DNA of 44,599 nucleotides, taken from Fragilariopsis cylindrus CCMP1102 (Eukaryota; Bacillariophyta; Bacillariophyceae; Bacillariales; Bacillariaceae). Shown here in pieces: positions 2,367 through 39,313 of the stretch. Within the stretch, counting starts at the first letter, position 1. The number at the start of each line of letters is the position of its first letter. The translations under genes were made by a program, and so were the position numbers. A model generated the notes under the pieces. It did no database searches and was not told the origin of the DNA. It worked only from the letters and a program-made list of their open reading frames with translations. The stretch lies in contig FMBT01000582.1 of assembly GCA_900095095.1 (NCBI GenBank), forward strand, positions 1 to 44,599, given 5' to 3'.

Positions 2367-2825
2367 TACATCAGAACAAATATGATACCGGTATGTAAAT
2401 AATAAAATGCGAAAGATATTCTTTTTGGGTCACGAGTTCGAGGGAGAGCAGGGAAACGACAATATTTTTGATAAAATTCGAAATCCAAGGACTTCGGTTG
2501 AGTCCCATGTATTTTAGTCATTAGTTAGTTAAAACTCAACGTGTAAGATGCACAGTAAAGCTTTCAAACAAACAAAAAATCTTTACAAAATAATATTTTA
2601 AAATTGATGATTGTTGATACCGATTGCTAATAGCTGATGACAAAATAATTGCAGCTGATGTGCAAAGTACTAGATATAAAGTCTTCCCTGTCGACCTTTA
2701 TAGTATCGACCTACCGTATCAACCTACAGTACTTGAACAATTGACTGTGGTATCGTTCGTTCTATTTTTGACTCATAGTAAAGTTCTTTGAGTTCAGCAG
2801 CGTTAGAAAGAAAGAATACATTGTT
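2367..2825. other. Intergenic upstream of CPOX
   Basis: AT-rich sequence with no convincing ORF on either strand. It probably holds the promoter of the downstream gene, but I can assign no clear core element. Confidence 0.5.
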
Positions 2826-2865
2826 CAGTCCAGTCCAGTACAGTACAGTACAGTACAGTACAGTC
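2826..2865 (+). repeat. (CAGTA/CAGTC)8 pentanucleotide repeat in the CPOX leader
   Basis: Eight consecutive 5-bp units end 2 bp before the ATG at 2868, so the repeat forms the end of the 5' leader. Confidence 0.85.
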
Positions 2866-2867
2866 TT

Positions 2868-4301
2868 ATGACGTTTATGACACTTGCAATCGTAATGCAA
2901 TTCGCTTTATGCTCACTGGTATTGGTAACCGGTTTCGTACAACAACATCCGTCAGCAAGTAGTTGTTTAGGAGGATCATTATTATCGTCGTCGTCATCAT
3001 CAACGACGTTATCGACGACGACTATTCACAATGCCGCCACTAAGTTGGAGGACGACGCAATAGAAGCAGCAGCCGTAGAAGTAGAAGGTAGTGATGATGA
3101 CGCATCAAATAATTCATCATTAAAATTATTTAATGAATTTGCATTATTTCTACAAAAAAAACAATTAGATATAATAAATGATATTGAAGAATTAGAAAAA
3201 GAATCTGGTAATATAGAAAATGAATTTTCGAATGATTGTTGGGGTGTATTCGCTGCTGAAGAAGAGAATGAAAATGATACGAATAGCGAAGGTGGAAGTG
3301 GTGGTAAAACAAGAGTAATTCAAAAAGGTAATATTGTTGAAAAGGGTGCATGTTCATTTACATTAATCAAAGGTGGTAAATTAACAAAAGAACGTGCTGA
3401 ATCAATTCGTGGTCGTAATGATAATGACAGTAGTAACGACAGTATTAATATTAAAGAAGGTGATACATATTATGCTGCAGCATTATCAATGGTATTACAT
3501 ACAAGATCACCAATGGTACCAACATTTAGAAGTGATGTACGTATATTTTTAGTTGAATCAACAGAATCAACAACAGGTGGTGAAGGTGAAGGTGATGGTG
3601 AAACAAAAACAACATTAGCATGGTTTGGTGGTGGTTCTGATTTAACACCATATTATTTATTTGATGATGACATCATGTTTTTTCATCATCAATTATATCA
3701 TTTATGTACTAAACATTCAGATGCAAATGATATGATAAATTATAAAAAAATGAAAGTTGCATGTGATGATTATTTCTTTTTACCAGCAAGGAATGAACAG
3801 TTAAGTACAGTGCAGTAATCATTACTATCTTTTGCTCTGTCTGTTTCCGCTCATACATTTTCTCACACACACATTATATCGGTTTTTTTTCTTTTTCTCT
3901 ATTTTTGTTTCCTTTCCCTCTTACCATACTTGTGTAGTCGTGGTGTCGGGGGTATGTTCTTTGATGATTTACCAGCAACATATAAAACAATGAATTTTGT
4001 ACAAGATGTCACAAAAAATTGGATGTCATCCTGGTTTCCAATCATACAAAAAAGACAATCATTAACATATACTGATCAACAAAAAGAATGGCAATTATTA
4101 CGTCGAGGTCGGTATTTAGAATTTAATTTATTATATGATCGTGGTGTGAAATTTGGTTTATCGAATCTAAATCCAAGAGTGGAAGGTGTGATGGTATCAG
4201 CACCACCATTAATTGCATGGGAATATAATCATATAATTGAACCCAATAGTGAAGAAGAACGATTAATGAAAATATTAAAATCACCAATTGAATGGGTATA
4301 A
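2868..4301 (+). CDS. CPOX: Coproporphyrinogen III oxidase (oxygen-dependent), plastid-targeted
   Basis: The enzyme decarboxylates coproporphyrinogen III to protoporphyrinogen IX with O2, in heme and chlorophyll synthesis. Exons are 2868-3799 and 3938-4301. The 138-bp intron has donor GTTAAG and acceptor TGTGTAG. Splicing rebuilds the family signature ARNEHRGVGGMFFDDL, with CA|T giving His, for a 431-aa protein. Other family blocks are WFGGGSDLTPYYLFDDD, CDDYFFLP, RRGRYLEFNLLYDRG and the standard C-terminal PPLIAWEYN...EWV. The N-terminus (ALCSLVLVTGFVQQ) is a hydrophobic signal followed by a Phe-led transit region, as in complex plastids (inference). A Ser/Thr and acidic linker precedes the catalytic part. 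The frame is intact. The ORF visible in the intron-retained exon 1 ends falsely at a TAA in the intron. Confidence 0.95.
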
Positions 4302-11757: not shown

Positions 11758-12957
11758 TTATAATCCTTTATTATATTTAAATGATTGTATTACAGTACCA
11801 CTTTCTTCATCTTTGAAATGATGAAATTTGGATTCTAATTCTTCTGACGATATAGTACCAATTTGTGGAAATAATGCTATTGTTGCTGGTAAACCAAAAC
11901 TAAATCCTAATAAGATAAATATTGTATTCAATATAAGTGTTGTATGTTTCTTAAGAAGCAAACGTTTCAAATGTATAGAATGGACTGATAAATTATCTAT
12001 TATAGATAAACCAATAGGTGGTAATAAAAATATTGGTAATGGTAATATCATTCTTGATATTACCATATCTGTTAATGCTTTTTTTGCTGCAATTTGTGAT
12101 GAACCAGCAATCACAACCCTCACTTCTTTTTGTTCGTGTGCCTGTTCGTTATTATTGTTTTGTTGTGGTTGTTGTTCATGATATATATTTATACCAGTGG
12201 TTAATTCATTTCGTCTCATTAATATAACATTAATTGCCGAAGCTGTTATAATTGCAGGTAAGGCAATAAATTTTTGTAATTTAATTTTTTTTATAGTCGA
12301 TATCGATGTTGATCGATCGATCATAGTTTTTAATCCGATTGATACACCACATGCACCAGATACAGCACCAATATATCCTTGTCCTAATGTAATATAGTTT
12401 GTTGGTTGTGTCTTATTACCATTATAATAATTAATTAATGCATTATGTGTTTGATTGAACCATTGGGAACATATTATTGTTATTGGTGTTGTTGCCATTA
12501 ATGCACCTAAACATAATGGTGTATTAAATGGTAAATAACCTGACATACGGAATGGACGTGGGATTACTTCACCAGTATCTGGATGTATAGCACTTTCAAC
12601 GATACGACGTGATTCCCATAGTAACTGAGTTTGTTCCGTGGTTAATTTTTCTGCATTTGTTTTTGCAATATCATAATCTATTAAAATTTGTTTGGAATTT
12701 TGAATTTGTAATTCTGTATAAAATAATGTACGTGGATCAACTAAATCTAACATTTTTTGGAATCGACCATAATATGTCTTCTGATTATATTTATCACCAT
12801 TCAATGAGAACTGTGGTATTTCAATTTCATCGTGTTGTAGAGACGACGACGATGACGACGATGATGACGACGAGTATGAACCTGTAGAAGTAGTAGTACT
12901 AGATTCTTGAGGATATGTACTTCTTGGTGTAGTAGTAGTAGTTGATGACGACGACAT
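11758..12957 (-). CDS. Sideroflexin (mitochondrial inner-membrane amino-acid carrier family)
   Basis: 399 aa, intact, ATG at 12957. Family marks are TYYGRFQKMLDLVDPRTLFY near residue 62, the hallmark HPDTGEVIPRPFRMSGYLPFN (split by family convention into HPDTGE and RMSGYLPFN), SQWFNQTHNALINYYN, several membrane segments (LGALMATTPITIIC; YIGAVSGACGVSIGL; FIALPAIITASAINVILM; MILPLPIFLLPPIGLSII; LILNTIFILLGFSFGLPATIALFPQ) and the C-terminal Phe/Pro-rich end. Animal sideroflexin 1 moves serine into mitochondria; the substrate here is not known. A Ser/Thr-rich N-terminal extension (about 45 aa) and a Gln/Asn insert (QQPQQNNNN) are lineage features. The leader has a (TACGA)n repeat. Confidence 0.93.
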   Translation of the reverse strand: MSSSSTTTTTPRSTYPQESSTTTSTGSYSSSSSSSSSSSLQHDEIEIPQFSLNGDKYNQKTYYGRFQKMLDLVDPRTLFYTELQIQNSKQILIDYDIAKTNAEKLTTEQTQLLWESRRIVESAIHPDTGEVIPRPFRMSGYLPFNTPLCLGALMATTPITIICSQWFNQTHNALINYYNGNKTQPTNYITLGQGYIGAVSGACGVSIGLKTMIDRSTSISTIKKIKLQKFIALPAIITASAINVILMRRNELTTGINIYHEQQPQQNNNNEQAHEQKEVRVVIAGSSQIAAKKALTDMVISRMILPLPIFLLPPIGLSIIDNLSVHSIHLKRLLLKKHTTLILNTIFILLGFSFGLPATIALFPQIGTISSEELESKFHHFKDEESGTVIQSFKYNKGL

Positions 12958-12990
12958 TATTTTTAATGTTGATTTTGAATATCGATAAGA

Positions 12991-13017
12991 TACGATACGA
13001 TACGATACGATACGATA
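12991..13017. repeat. (TACGA)n pentanucleotide repeat
   Basis: About five 5-bp units lie 33 bp upstream of the sideroflexin ATG, in its probable 5' leader. Confidence 0.85.
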
Positions 13018-20587: not shown

Positions 20588-21867
20588 TCAAGTCTCCTTC
20601 ACCTTTTTCGTTGGTGCGGTATCACCAACTGAGCTACGACGTCCACCAGCAATGAGCATCGTACATTTGAGTGGGATGTAGAACAAAATCAACGTCCACA
20701 AATATCCAAAAATATTGATACAAACGAGAAAACTTTTATACTTCTTTTTGTCGTTGACGTGGGGGTACGGCGCACCAGCCTCAGGGCACCTTAGTTGTTT
20801 GTTATTGTTGTTGTCGTCTTTGCCTTTGTTACCTACTGCACCCAAAAAATTGCACAAAGGTTCCCAACCTTCTTGCACTTGGAATTCTAAAAACACTTCA
20901 TCTAGATCTAAGTTGTTTTCGTTTGCGTACGATTGCATTGTTGTGCGAACATAACTGTTCCAATTATCGTGATACTGCGACAAAAGTTGTTCCAGCTTTT
21001 TATTGTTATAATCCTGTAGGTTCACAGGGAATAATCGACTGAATGTGCTACCCATAAGTTCATCGGCATTCCAAAATAACGGAAACGTATAAATTGTCAA
21101 AGTCATCCCAAACTGTCGAATGGATGGAATCCAATTAAGTATGCTATCACGTACGCTTCCGGCCCACTTGTTTCCTGTTGATCGGGTCGTCAATACAACC
21201 TTTACCTCCCTTGGGTCTGTTACTACTTGTTTGTAAACTTCTATAATGTCTCTAAAGTAAATACAGGTGGGAAAATCCATACTGCTTCTCGCAAGAAATG
21301 TACTACTATCAATACTTCTGAATTCTCCGTTATTATTGGCACCCAACAAAATTTCCGAGAGGATCTCTACGCGACGCTTATTCGGTGTCATCAACGATTC
21401 ATTATTCCACCAAATTGGTTCGTGTGAGTCGTTCAACTCCAAAGGCGATAAAGATTCTAGTTCTTGCCAAAGTGGAATAAATTCGGGATGTTTAAAAGCA
21501 TCTTCCATATGAAACGCTGGACCAAGACCAAGCTGAACGATGGATTCTTTAAATGACATTGTTCCTTATAATCAAATTGTTTGATTATTATTCATTCGAA
21601 GGGGGGGGGGGGGGGGGGGGAGAGAGAGAGAAGAAAATATTGAGATTTGTGCATTCACGTACTGACATAGCATAAATGTCTAATAAACACGCCGCCTGTT
21701 TTTATGTTTTGTCATTTCTCACCTGTTCGACCCAATCCAGCCCCAACAACGTGTTTGGCCTGGATTGTGGATGCTGAAGCTGCTACATTGGTAGGAATAG
21801 AAGCAAAGAAGGCTGCCAGTACTGTCACGAAAAGTAATAGCGATCTTGAAATCATCAGGGTTGCCAT
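20588..21867 (-). CDS. Membrane-anchored sulfotransferase-family protein
   Basis: Exon 1 (21867-21723) has ATG 21867, a signal/anchor (SRSLLLFVTVLAAFFASIP) and the start of the family P-loop region (HVVGAGLGRTG). The 158-bp intron (GTGAGA...ATAAG) joins exon 2 (21564-20588) as GRTG|TMSFKESIVQLGLGPAFHMED. That is the canonical N-terminus of the Sulfotransfer_4 family (GxGRTGTxSxKxAL...GxGPCYHM). Further blocks are DFPTCIYFRDIIEVYK, VKVVLTTRSTGNKWAGSV (the PAPS 3'-phosphate region with R and S) and GWEPLCNFLG near the end. A C-terminal hydrophobic segment (INIFGYLWTLILFYIPL) follows the catalytic domain. The protein is 373 aa. It would transfer sulfate from PAPS in the endomembrane system; the acceptor is unknown. 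The intron contains a 20-G tract. Confidence 0.88.
21601..21630. repeat. (G)20(AG)n tract in the sulfotransferase intron
   Basis: Twenty Gs followed by AG dinucleotides, inside the intron. Confidence 0.85.
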
Positions 21868-33355: not shown

Positions 33356-33433
33356 TTAAGGCGCGTTCCGGCTCAAGGTGATATTTTGTGGGACACTCGC
33401 GACTCAAAATTTTGCCTCCGCGTGGAGGTATTT

Positions 33434-33563
33434 TTTGTTTGCTTTCTACAGAATTTTGTTTCGTGTCCTTCTTCTCAACAACGTCGAAGTAACAAAGTAC
33501 CTGTGTTCGTCGACGTTGTTGTCAAGAAGGACACGAAACAAAATTCTCTAGAAAGCAAACAAA
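33434..33563. repeat. 54-bp-arm hairpin near the transposon left end
   Basis: Arms 33434-33487 and 33510-33563 are complementary at 51 of 54 positions, with a 22-nt loop. The arms include GAATTTTGTTTCGTGTCC and its complement. No matching structure is seen at the right end, where only short hairpins such as ATTGGTC...GACCAAT (39155-39177) occur. Confidence 0.85.
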
Positions 33564-33896
33564 TAATCAACCAACCAACCAACCAACCACATAGCTACCA
33601 ACCAACCACATACAAGGTTGGGGTAGCATAAGAGACAAGCCAATTTGAATTCGTTCTAAGTACAGTACAGTGCACATACAAGTCGACACACACAAGACGA
33701 CGGAGTGACACATCGGAGTACACTTACGAGGTGCAAGATACAAGCTCAACGCGTTTCTTCTATTACGCTCTGTTTAAGACAACAGCCAAGTGACTAAGAC
33801 AAGAGGGGGGGTATCATAAGAGACCATCCATTTCGCAGCGCTTCTAAGTACAGTAGATATCACATACTACAAGTAAGATTTCCAATTACCAATTCG

Positions 33897-34345
33897 TACG
33901 GAGTAAGTGTTGTTCTGTTGATTCAAATTCGCGATATTCATCACCACTAACAAACTACTGGTTATTTTTTGTGTTTAATGCGACTTTGACGAAACAGAGC
34001 TTCATATCTTGTGTTCGAATAGGTTGACGTCGATTCGAAAGATAGGGTATTTACAAGTACGGTATTTATAGTACGAGACGCGAGTAAGTGTTGCTCGTTT
34101 GATTGACAGCATTCAATTATATTTTCACTAACAAAGTACTAGTTATTTCAAGTCGATTTTGATAACTGCTACGAAATCGAGCGTCATTTCCTGATCAATC
34201 AGTACGAGACGCGAGTACAACGCGAGTAAGTGTTGCTCGTTTGATTGACAGCATTCAATTATGTTTGTACTAGCCAAACAGTAGTGCTTTTGCGACATTT
34301 TTGATAACTACTTAAAAATCGAGCATCATTTCTCGATCCGTACGA
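33897..34345. repeat. Left subterminal array, three units
   Basis: Units of 140-180 bp contain GAGTAAGTGTTG, TTGACAGCATTCAATTAT and AAATCGAGC (GAGC at 33997, 34179, 34321), plus GTACGAGACGCGAGTA between them. They are the reverse complement of the right array. Confidence 0.85.
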
Positions 34346-34352
34346 GACGCGA

Positions 34353-34403
34353 GTACGGATCGAACGTTCGTACGGATCGAACGTTCGTACGGATCGAACG
34401 TTC
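34353..34403. repeat. Three exact 17-bp palindromic units
   Basis: GTACGGATCGAACGTTC is repeated three times head to tail and holds the palindromes GAACGTTC and, across unit borders, CGTACG. It sits between the left array and the transposase gene, at the probable promoter. Confidence 0.9.
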
Positions 34404-34513
34404 GTACGGTCTACTGCAACTGTCAATAGAAGACCTTATTCTGCTTCGTCTTCTAACTCTGCTTCATCTTCCTCTTCCTCCTCTTCTGCTCTGATAGGAT
34501 ACGATTGTTCACA

Positions 34514-37500
34514 ATGAGTGGAAATATAACAAAAAGAAAAGGGCGCAGGAAAGCAGCAAAGGTGCCGGTGACTGCAGTTTCACAGAGTGAAACTAAGAAA
34601 AGAGGACGTCCAGCTAGAGATAACAGAAAGCCTCCACCGGCAACTGCTGCGCCACCTCCAGGTGCTTCACGACAATTATTATTATCACCACCATCATTAC
34701 TATCACCGGCCTGTGCAGTGTCTGTATCTTCTTCTTTGACTTCCAGTTCTACTCCAAGGAGGAAGGTTAGTCCTCCTACTCATACTGTTACAGGTAATGA
34801 TCATGAAAGTTCTCCAAGTAAGTTTCTATGTTTAGAACAAGAAGAATTGAAGGTTGACTTAGCCTCTGCTCTAGAAGTTTCGGCAGAGAATTTAGTAGAG
34901 ACTCTGACGTCTCTCTTGATTAAATTAAATAATAATACAGCTCCATCTTCACCGGCGGTGGCATCAGTGACTGCGGCATCACCAGCAACAGTCGAGACAG
35001 CGTTAGCTCCATCTGCAGCTTCACCTGTAATATACTCCAATTATACAAGACCGTCGCCACCAATTGAATTTGATATAGATGCTTTCAAGGTTGCCGATCG
35101 ATCCGATTCTGCGGCAAGGAAGGGTAAGAGTAGAGCTGTAAATAATTTAGTACAAACTATATTAGGAGAGTATTGTTCTAACCACTATTCACAACAACAA
35201 CTAGTATTAGCATTGCACACTGCGTCCAAGGATCCGCGTGTTAGACCTTTTTTTAAAAGTGCAGGACTAGCAGACGTTGAAGATTTAGCAGCCATGCGTT
35301 TTCACCATGAACAATCAATCGTATTTTGATAACAACAAATGATTCTAAAAGAAGGGTAGTGCAAATGATGATGTACGGTCTTACGAACAGTCCCTATACT
35401 CAGCAATGGCCGAATCCCCAATATCTTCTAATCGCACAACAACAGTGCCTTCCATTGCTTCCCGTACCAGATTGTTTTCAGGTATTCCATACATTACTTT
35501 GACAAGATGTATGAGCAGGGCCAAAGCACATCGGAAGAACATGCGTGACAATAACGGTACTGTTTTTGGCCGTGTACTGAAACGTCTGGGGCGTACGAAG
35601 GTGACACCTGAGTTGCACGCGGAGTTTTTACGCTGGTTGGACAATCACCATATGGTCATACAGAGTCCGTTAGCTTCAGACACACTACTGGTACCCGACG
35701 GTACCACTAGTGGGGTCAAGAAACGTGTAAACAAGATCTTACTTCAAATACCTGTCAGGGAGCTGCACAACGACTTAATAGATGCCGATCCTCTGGTTGG
35801 TCTAGCTGGAGCACGTGATTGCAATGGTAAAATATTGATATCTGATACAAAATTGAGGGAATTGTTACCGCCACATTTACGAATGATGAGTGATCGGTAT
35901 AAAATAATGTGTGGGTGCGAACCGTGTATTCAAATGATCAACCTTCAACAGAGCTATAACCGGTTTATTTGTTACCGAATCAAGGATTTCAAGGAGATAC
36001 GCGATGGTTTCAATCCAAGAACAAGGAGATATATGGCGGCAGACGAACCCTCAAGAAATACCAGGACAAGGTGCAGCCACAGGGAGAGGCTAGGTTTAAG
36101 ACCGCCAAACTAGCGATGGTTTGTTGCTTGTGTGCTCCGCCTGATGACAGGTTCCAATCTCTTCATCAATTGGACTGTGTTACGGGCGAGTGCACAGCTT
36201 GTCCTGGGTTCGACCGGCCTCCTGAAGAATTGACTATGAACAATGATATTTCTTTCCATTTGTACGATGTCCTCCCGTCCTGTAGCATACACAACATGTT
36301 GCCAAAATTTCCGCCGGTGATTGATGGGGTTAGGCTAGTCCAAACGAAATCCTGCGTTCAATGCGATTTGCTTTGGAGGCGGACCCAAACTACGTACGGG
36401 GTGGCTTTTACAAAAGGAAATATTTAACCCAAAAGAAATGTGGGTTTCAAGAGTTCTTCACTGATTATTACCTTCCTCATTTGGAAAAATACACTTATCA
36501 TCGCTTCCTGAAGATTATACTCAGCAAATCGAACATCGAAGACGTCCGTTTTAGTCGACTACAACCGGGCGAGGTGGCTGGTTCACGAGATTACGCGGAA
36601 CGCTTACTAATGAAATTCCACATGGAAATCCAGAGTGAACACTTCGGTCAGGGAAGAGATCTATCAATTGAGGGTAACGACATCAAATTTTATCCTGTCG
36701 GAGAAACAGAAACAACCTCGCATTTCTATTCCTTCCTGAAAGATTCGAAAATACAAAATGCTGCCACGACGGATAAACACATGGATCGCTTAATTAAAAT
36801 CTTAAAAGAAAAAAAAGTCTTGAGTGAACGCTTATACGAAACAACCGATGGTTGTGGCGCTCAGTATCGATCAGCAACAGCGCTATGGTTCTTATCAGGA
36901 TTATCAATCAAACATAACATTGTAATTGATCGTTCGTTCGGTGCTCCCGGTCATGGTACGTTATTCTAAACTATTGTATCTAAAATATGCTTTGCTTTGT
37001 TTTGTCGTATCTAACTTTTATTTATTTTATTTCATTTGGTATTACAGGGAAAAGGTATCGTGGACGGAGTCAACGGTACTGATAAAAACTTATTGATACG
37101 TTATTCTGCGAGGGAGCTGAAGCAAGCGATGGATAGCATTGCCGAAGAAGATGCTGTCGATGACAAAAAACGTTTTGCAGCACATAGCGTAAACGAAATC
37201 GGTAAAGAATTCTCATTAGCTGAAGAATGTGCACGACTGTTGCGTATCGGGAGATCCGGGGGTCAAATCGGGAGGAAAATCAGCCAAGAGAGAAAATTCG
37301 CGGGCCATCAAACACCACGAGTGGTTAGTGTGGAAAAAAGAAGATACAGTTTCGGAACTGAAATACAAAACTGTTGAGTTTTCAAAGGAAGCAAAACAAG
37401 CTGGTGGAACGTCAAACAAAAGATACCATGTATATTGCTGTCCTGAGTTGGGTACCGGTCGTGTTGCTTTAAGAAGAATTCCCTGCGCTTGCGTACCGTG

Positions 37501-38170
37501 TGATACTACTATTCGATTACCATGGCAAGTCGGTGTGAAGGCACCAAAACAACCAAGATTTGCCACCGTGAAGGATTGCCGATATCGAAAAATACTTGGA
37601 CTAAGGAACGAATGGGATGTGGTTCGCCTAGAAGTCGACCATGTCAAGGCCAACATAGACGACGTAGACACTGCGAGAGAAGAAATTCTTGTTTCGTTAA
37701 GTTCCAATATAGCAGCCACAATTGAGATTGGTGGATACGGTGCTATTGTAACTAATGATGAAGCCGCGAGGGATGGATACTGGATGGTGGAGTGGACTAG
37801 TGAATCATATACGTGTCAAGAAACTGGTAGATTAGTATGTGATGGATTTTATTTGAATGAAGTTCCAGGAGGACCACAATGGTGGACCCCGAGTGGACTG
37901 CCAGTAACAACCCCACTAGTGAACATTGTCATGGGGGATGTTAAAATGGATCCAATTGAGGAAGGAAGAAATGTCCCATCGTCATCTCATGTTAGTAGAA
38001 GGCAATGCCTAGAAAAAGAAGCCCTGCGTGTTAAACGTGACAGCCATGACTATATATTTGATGAGATTTTTAGAAGAGAAACTTTAGAATATGAAACAAG
38101 AGCAGAAGAAGAGGAAGAGGATGAAGATGAAGAAGAGTTAGAGGAAGAGTCAGAAGCAGAAGCAGAATAA
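34514..38170 (+). CDS. DDD/E-type transposase with AT-hook N-terminus, frame-broken
   Basis: ATG 34514 (the track's TTG at 34505 is not needed). The N-terminus is basic and Pro/Ala-rich with an AT-hook (KKRGRPARDN). Frames then change near 35326-35365, 36015, 36410 and 37250. All but the first cluster can be healed by one base in a short homopolymer: TTT at about 36015, AAAA at about 36412, GGG at about 37249. One intron (36956-37047, GTACG...TTACAG) joins GAPGHG|KGIVDGVNGTDK. Cys pairs (CGCEPC; CCLCAPP...CTACPGF; CVQCDLL) suggest a zinc-binding part. The catalytic candidates are D in SRDYAER (36589), D in TTDGCGAQYRS (36847) and D in GIVDGVNG (37063), matching transposases with a SDGCxxQY...SHGKxxxDGxxG core. 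The C-terminus is acidic (Glu-rich). Intact or decayed is undecided. Confidence 0.72.
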
Positions 38171-38239
38171 GGTCTTTATTATCACTTGCAGTAGACCGTA
38201 CCACTGCAGTAGACCGTACCATGATCCGGACCTAACAGT

Positions 38240-39010
38240 ACTGTACGTCGTACTCGCGTCTCGTACAGAAATGACGCTCGATTTTGAAGTAGTTATCAAA
38301 AATGTCGCAAAAGAACTGGTAATTTGCTAGTACAAACATAATTGAATGCTGTCAATCAAACGAGCAACACTTACTCGCGTCTCGTACCGTACTGTGTGTC
38401 GTACTCAGTCTCGTACTGTTCGATTGCCAGAATAGACGCTCGATTTCGAAGCAGTTGTCAACAATGTCGCGAAACAACTAGTAGTTTGCTAGTACCAACA
38501 TAATTGAATGCTGTTTATTAACGTAGCATCGCTTACTCGCGTCTCGTACCGTACTGTACGTCGTACTCGTACTCGTACTGATCGATCGCAAGAATTGAAG
38601 CTCGATTTCGAAGCAGTTGCCAACATCGACTGGAAATAACTAGTAGTTTGCTAGTAGAAATATAATTGAATGCTGTCAATTAACGTAGCATCACTTACTC
38701 GCGTCTCGTACTGTGTGTCGTACTGTGTGTCGTACTCGTACTGATCGATCGCAAGAATTGATGCTCGATTTCGAAGCAGTTGCCAACATCGTCGCGAAAT
38801 AACTAGTAGTTTGCTAGTAGAAATATAATTGAATGCTGTCAATTAACGTAGCAAAAAATTACTTCGACTTAATCATGTAAATACCGTTTGAACGCAAGAA
38901 AACAAGCTCGATTTCGAAGCATTATCAACAATGTCGCAAAACAACTAGTAGTTTGCTAGTACCAACATAATTGAATGCTGTCAATTAACAGAGCAAAATT
39001 TACCGCGTAA
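38240..39010. repeat. Right subterminal array, five units
   Basis: GCTCGATTT starts units at 38276, 38438, 38600, 38763 and 38906 (spacing 162, 162, 163, 143). Each carries GTTTGCTAGTA or close variants, ATAATTGAATGCTGTCAATT and usually TTACTCGCGTCTCGTAC. The orientation is opposite to the left array, as expected for transposase-binding sites. Confidence 0.88.
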
Positions 39011-39313
39011 GGAATTTTTTGATCAATCCCGCGATGCGCTGTTTTCAGCTTCGACAAGTACCCCATATGGGGCAAATTCTACGCAGATCACTCGCAGGGC
39101 GTTGCCGACACCACCTACACCTGGCGATGCGTCTTGATTCAATGCATGGTAAATGATTGGTCAGTTATACGACCAATGAGCTTCTGTAGAAGCTAAAAAT
39201 GCCCCCAATTGATAGTACTTCACTGCATAGCGCGTGTTGTAGTAGAAGCGTCTGTCCGCAGATTGTCACACAGTAGCGAAAAACGAATCACATCCGCGCG
39301 GAACACGCCTTAA

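Follow-up and report, generated by a model that had tools for sequence, protein, structure and literature searches.

Results

Anatomy of the element

The DNA analyzed here (henceforth the window) is a stretch of 44,599 nucleotides from the diatom Fragilariopsis cylindrus CCMP1102, and forms part of contig C768 in the genome that was searched, which comprises 67.9 Mb in 818 contigs. Ordinary host genes were recognized in the window by Pfam, namely a coproporphyrinogen III oxidase (2772-3818, forward strand), a sideroflexin (11758-13017, reverse strand) and a sulfotransferase (20588-21565, reverse strand); the same genome also contains 27 silicon-transporter matches, the best with an E-value of 1e-226, which mark the host as a diatom. 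The element under study occupies positions 33360-39309 (5950 bp) and is bordered by TTAA on the left (33356-33359) and again on the right (39310-39313), which comparison of the flanks and of an empty site on contig C171, where a single TTAA is found, marks as the two copies of a 4-bp target duplication. The inverted ends of the window copy, GGCGCGTTCCG and GGCGTGTTCCG, pair at 10 of 11 bases, whereas family-wide a terminal inverted repeat of about 17 bp is common to both ends; by the end pattern, it lies at 33360-33376 on the forward strand (family form GGCGYGTTCCRGCTCAA) and at 39293-39309 on the reverse strand. The original prediction of TTAA on both sides, a 10/11 match between the inverted ends and a 5.95-kb body at 33356-39313 was thus accurate in all these features, and its view of the element as a transposon is supported.

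Between these borders, self-comparison revealed several repeats in addition to the transposase gene. Near the left end is an inverted repeat and potential hairpin (33430-33567), with arms of 58 nt that are 93% complementary and a spacer of 22 nt; self-complementary matches recur at the equivalent position in other copies. It is followed by two left subterminal repeat units (34078-34338, forward) at a spacing of 142 nt. A right subterminal array of units of about 162 nt (38243-39003, reverse) was found by self-comparison and by TRF, the latter counting 3.6 copies over 38267-38853, with one more unit beyond. The subterminal repeats, about 142-162 nt in size, are so arranged that the left units are inverted relative to the right array, the three longest pairings between them being 86-93% complementary.

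Transposase gene and its intron

The transposase gene of the window copy is broken. Exon 1 lies at 34514-36955 and exon 2 at 37048-38170, both on the forward strand, and tblastn with the protein of an intact copy as query revealed five frame changes; between the exons is a phase-1 GT..AG intron of 92 nt (36956-37047), inside the HGKG of the motif HGKGIVDGVNG. The intact gene resides at L011 on contig C189, where exon 1, the 92-nt phase-1 GT..AG intron and exon 2 together encode a protein of 1189 amino acids. Its layout consists of an AT-hook near the N-terminus (RGRP at residue 39), a Cys-rich middle (CGCEPC at 475, CCLCAPP at 546 and CNACPGF at 569), and then a core with conserved Asp residues at 702, 788 and 829, i.e., with the spacing D-85-D-40-D. 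In the window, the first two Asp codons fall in exon 1 (36589-36591 and 36847-36849) and the third in exon 2 (37063-37065). The RGRP core of the AT-hook, the Cys groups and the SRDYAER, TTDGCGAQYRS and HGKGIVDGVNG motifs that had been reported for the window copy are indeed there, spread over several frames.

All three Asp residues are invariant in the three cores that were aligned, one of which comes from a distant relative that is 45% identical in the aligned part of the core (tblastn gives 37% for 328 columns). This invariance upholds the predicted core with three conserved Asp; these residues are presumably the catalytic ones, and the order of the motifs suggests a putative DDD transposase core of RNase-H-like fold, for which a crude Chou-Fasman prediction offers no evidence. 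The relative, a diverged and intronless core amid unrelated ORFs, was found once, at L025 (3687-5058) and L026 on contigs C158 and C458, which are 99.5% alike, and may be an old fossil or a domestication.

The intron within the core had been predicted as well, and its conservation among copies supports it as real. It occurs as a GT..AG intron in the same place and with the same length of 92 nt in 8 of the 11 copies scanned, and with 98 nt in a ninth; the scan pattern was unmatched in the other two, L017 and L023, and in L017 the intron is read through in frame. The splice reading is further supported by the relative at L025, which has no intron at the HGKG point and continues across it as HGKGFADGING.

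Searches for known domains and relatives

No Pfam model matched either the 1189-residue protein or the L017 read-through at E-values up to 10, no NCBIfam model matched the L017 read-through or the distant relative within the same limit, and the best match in a profile search of the PDB was an unrelated enzyme at E 0.11. Six ORF pieces of the window gave three Pfam matches (E 0.043-0.72) and the distant relative gave one (E 0.052), all falling short of the cut-offs, those of the window pieces being unrelated to transposition; even the best of them (E 0.043) look like chance. As controls, Pfam identified RVT_2 in a Copia-like ORF and several ordinary domains in ORFs of the window. That Copia-like ORF (L010, 1186-4242) adjoins a partial copy of the element, and its polyprotein also matches a PTM/DIR17-like Tudor domain at E 9e-7, barely above the cut-off. 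Beyond this genome, viral contigs were scanned by protein and by alignment, and prokaryotic contigs by alignment; the scans gave 1, 166 and 78 stretches with a short-pattern match, among which no relative was confirmed. DNA patterns of the core (three on viral and one on prokaryotic contigs) returned 34, 0, 1 and 4 stretches, none of which contained the core when read in frame; viral and prokaryotic collections such as these say little about relatives in eukaryotes. The original assignment to a poorly classified group of transposases therefore stands in part, namely with respect to the Pfam, NCBIfam and PDB libraries, none of which gave a significant match.

These searches bear on the superfamily of the element, for which we hold a Sola-like assignment about as likely as not (Discussion). 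The absence of a Pfam or NCBIfam model at E-values up to 10 and of a related PDB structure would also agree with a lineage that belongs to none of the named superfamilies, or that is the algal part of an undescribed group present in animals too, and whose 4-bp duplications are of nearly free sequence. Animal proteins with a closely similar SDGCxxQY / SHGKxxxDGxxG core and a CxxGxCxxCPG block point the same way and are taken as a lead only. However, Pfam need not contain every Sola group, and the anatomy fits Sola. We give this alternative, which concerns the superfamily alone, somewhat under an even chance. Its fullest form, in which the DGCxxQY ... HGKGxxDGxxG core following a CxxGxCxxCP block would define an undescribed DDD superfamily common to algae and animals, with 4-bp duplications of nearly free sequence and mobile until recently in this diatom, is rather unlikely.

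Target site

Ends were examined at 47 loci, i.e., the window, L009-L024, L027-L036 and L039-L058. The last 20 are short copies for which the two ends were the sole basis of selection, out of 24 facing-end pairs about 1 kb apart among the matches listed; three others of these 24 already lay within L019, L033 and L034. Altogether, 52 facing-end pairings were found, of which 44 were kept and 8 that were nested or crossing were dropped (four in L017, one in L033 and three in L034), while L010, L021, L023, L024 and L029 had no facing pair. The pairings were dropped with the flanks in view; among the 8, none matched at 4 bp and one matched at 3 bp.

An exact 4-bp duplication was present in 41 of the 44 kept pairs, as compared with 20 of 1892 mispaired flanks in the control. 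One pair also matched at 2 bp, and none did at 3 bp or at 5-8 bp, by which a duplication longer than 4 bp was rejected. When one site seen twice was merged, 40 distinct sites remained with 38 different 4-mers, which had 30% G+C and included AGGG, TACC, GCCA and CCTA. The flanks showed two weak preferences, one for a pyrimidine just outside the duplication (59 of 80 flanks, p = 2.5e-5) and the other for a purine one base further out (56 of 80, p = 4.5e-4).

The three pairs that lacked an exact duplication were those of L013, L015 and L048. The right flanks of L013 and L015 are 98% identical to that of the window over about 2.0 and 1.9 kb, to the end of the sequence compared, and their left parts differ from the window's; together with the window from 39310 onward, they go back to a segment that was duplicated and whose left side was rearranged. 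Because they share the right flank of the window, they are not independent insertions, and we rejected them as a contradiction of the 4-bp rule.

Empty sites were sought for two copies, and a clean insertion was evident in both. For the window element, the joined flanks align through the junction to contig C171, where TTAA stands once (90% for bases 1-208 of a 220-base query; with longer flanks, 738 of 847 columns agree), and those of L011 match contig C68 with a single CCTA (92% over bases 1-178 of 180).

Target-site choice decides against the original prediction that the element targets TTAA, which would have made it a piggyBac, Kolobok or Sola3 transposon. TTAA flanks the window copy and, among the 40 distinct sites, only one other, the short copy L057; the remaining 38 are other 4-mers, so that the refuting outcome named with the original prediction, genomic copies lacking TTAA, did occur. 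Since insertions of the family duplicate nearly any 4-mer, the TTAA of the window is a coincidence of one insertion, and with TTAA targeting gone the placement in these three superfamilies loses its support. There are further points in favor of Kolobok, which has been reported from this same diatom and whose termini are described as 5'-RR...YY-3' (PMC9587614), as the GG...CC ends here would allow. Nonetheless, inspection of the aligned cores revealed, in the interval from the second to the third Asp, no C/DxxH motif, which this source places in the corresponding interval of the catalytic triad for Kolobok and four other superfamilies, and no Pfam model, that of piggyBac included, matched the 1189-residue protein at E-values up to 10. 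Overall, a TTAA-specific transposon is refuted by the target duplications and must be considered very improbable.

Copy number and short copies

A 22-base end pattern, allowing up to two mismatches, occurred 223 times in the genome, and its reversed control did not occur at all. Transposase sequence was found at no fewer than 12 element loci, in addition to the distant relative on its two near-identical contigs. At 9 of the 12 transposase loci listed, the ends are paired and flanked by an exact 4-bp duplication, the exceptions being L013, L015 and L023, the last of which had no facing pair. A domesticated or host gene that is flanked by repeats by chance could be imagined for a sequence such as the 45%-identical relative, a single find amid unrelated ORFs; for the window element, however, these nine loci and the existence of empty sites refute it, leaving this explanation scarcely credible.

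Short copies, about 1 kb in length, are frequent; the 24 listed pairs of this size overlap none of the listed transposase matches. At L017, one such copy of 995 bp, with its own AGCT duplication, is nested in an autonomous copy. Two others, L052 and L053 (C442, 33244-35768), are identical in 974 of 974 aligned columns, one exceeding the other by 26 bases. They are oppositely oriented, are separated by about 0.55 kb and differ in their duplications (TATC and TGGT). Their identity is most naturally read as recent movement in trans, possibly by a local hop, with gene conversion as another possible cause. Among the remaining short copies, no two at distinct sites exceed 92% similarity, and pairwise comparison of all 32 short copies gives a median of 80%; this divergence indicates that much of the family is old.

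In a comparison of the 32 short copies with the window element, matches were printed for ten. In nine of the ten, the match was confined to roughly the first 55 bp and to portions of the final 270 bp, and the tenth, a 418-bp copy (L027), matched subterminal repeat units also. A requirement of the subterminal arrays for movement is therefore not supported, as nine of the ten matched short copies align at the ends only.

Discussion

The element in the window is, in all probability, a degenerate member of a multi-copy family of cut-and-paste DNA transposons of the diatom with terminal inverted repeats, for which the borders, the 4-bp duplication, two empty sites, the invariant Asp residues and the short copies sharing the ends are direct observations. 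In the mechanism that we propose, the transposase would bind the GGCGYGTTCC ends and excise the element, which would then reinsert with a 4-bp stagger, mildly favoring targets whose four bases are immediately preceded by a pyrimidine and followed by a purine; repair of the gaps would generate the 4-bp duplication, and the short copies, about 1 kb long, would be mobilized in trans. The family thus appears to have been recently mobile and to be otherwise ordinary, apart from the question of its superfamily.

With respect to that question, we consider it roughly an even call that the family is Sola-like, on the side of Sola1 and Sola2 rather than Sola3; otherwise, it would belong to another or an unnamed lineage. 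If it proved to fall outside the named superfamilies, it would add one to them, and if not, it is an ordinary Sola-like family. In either event, TTAA around a single insertion is no evidence of TTAA targeting, and the present results correct a superfamily call that was made from one copy. Moreover, the unbroken gene, the empty sites and the identical pair of short copies make this diatom family a usable case for a group of transposases that is poorly profiled.

Comparison with known systems places the family as follows. Kolobok, piggyBac and Sola3 have 4-bp duplications in common with it, the TTAA of the window being coincidental, but all three are excluded because of the target. Sola3 targets TTAA, which here is found at only 2 of 40 distinct sites. 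Likewise, piggyBac and Kolobok are described as duplicating TTAA (PMC9587614), a specificity that is absent here. Ginger1 also generates 4-bp duplications; according to its description, however, it targets CCGG or CCGT/ACGG and has TGTNR termini (PMC2836005), whereas the present family has GGCG ends, nearly free targets and no Pfam integrase match.

The Sola superfamily, introduced by Bao et al. in 2009 (as cited in PMC10741241 and PMC3627910), is described as having a DDD transposase, a 4-bp duplication, a length of mostly 2-9 kb and terminal inverted repeats of 11-1124 bp (PMC10741241). Sola has been listed for another diatom, Cyclotella cryptica (PMC7466962), Sola-1 and Sola-2 for the brown alga Ectocarpus (PMC12477816), and curated Sola1 elements of bivalves are given a mean length of 5445 bp (PMC10294476). 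The family described here agrees in its 4-bp duplication (41 of 44 end pairs), in its length of 5950 bp, which falls within 2-9 kb, and in its terminal inverted repeat of about 17 bp (with 10 of 11 bases pairing in the window copy), which is at least 11 bp long; the DDD triad may have its counterpart in the three Asp residues that are invariant in the three aligned cores, with a presumed catalytic role. It differs from the Sola2 elements of two amoebozoa, for which AT-rich 4-mer duplications such as AWWT are described (PMC3627910), in that its duplications have 30% G+C and most are not AWWT-like. By its anatomy, set beside published descriptions, the family fits Sola; membership in Sola is decided by transposase homology, and the anatomical fit makes the family possibly Sola-like.
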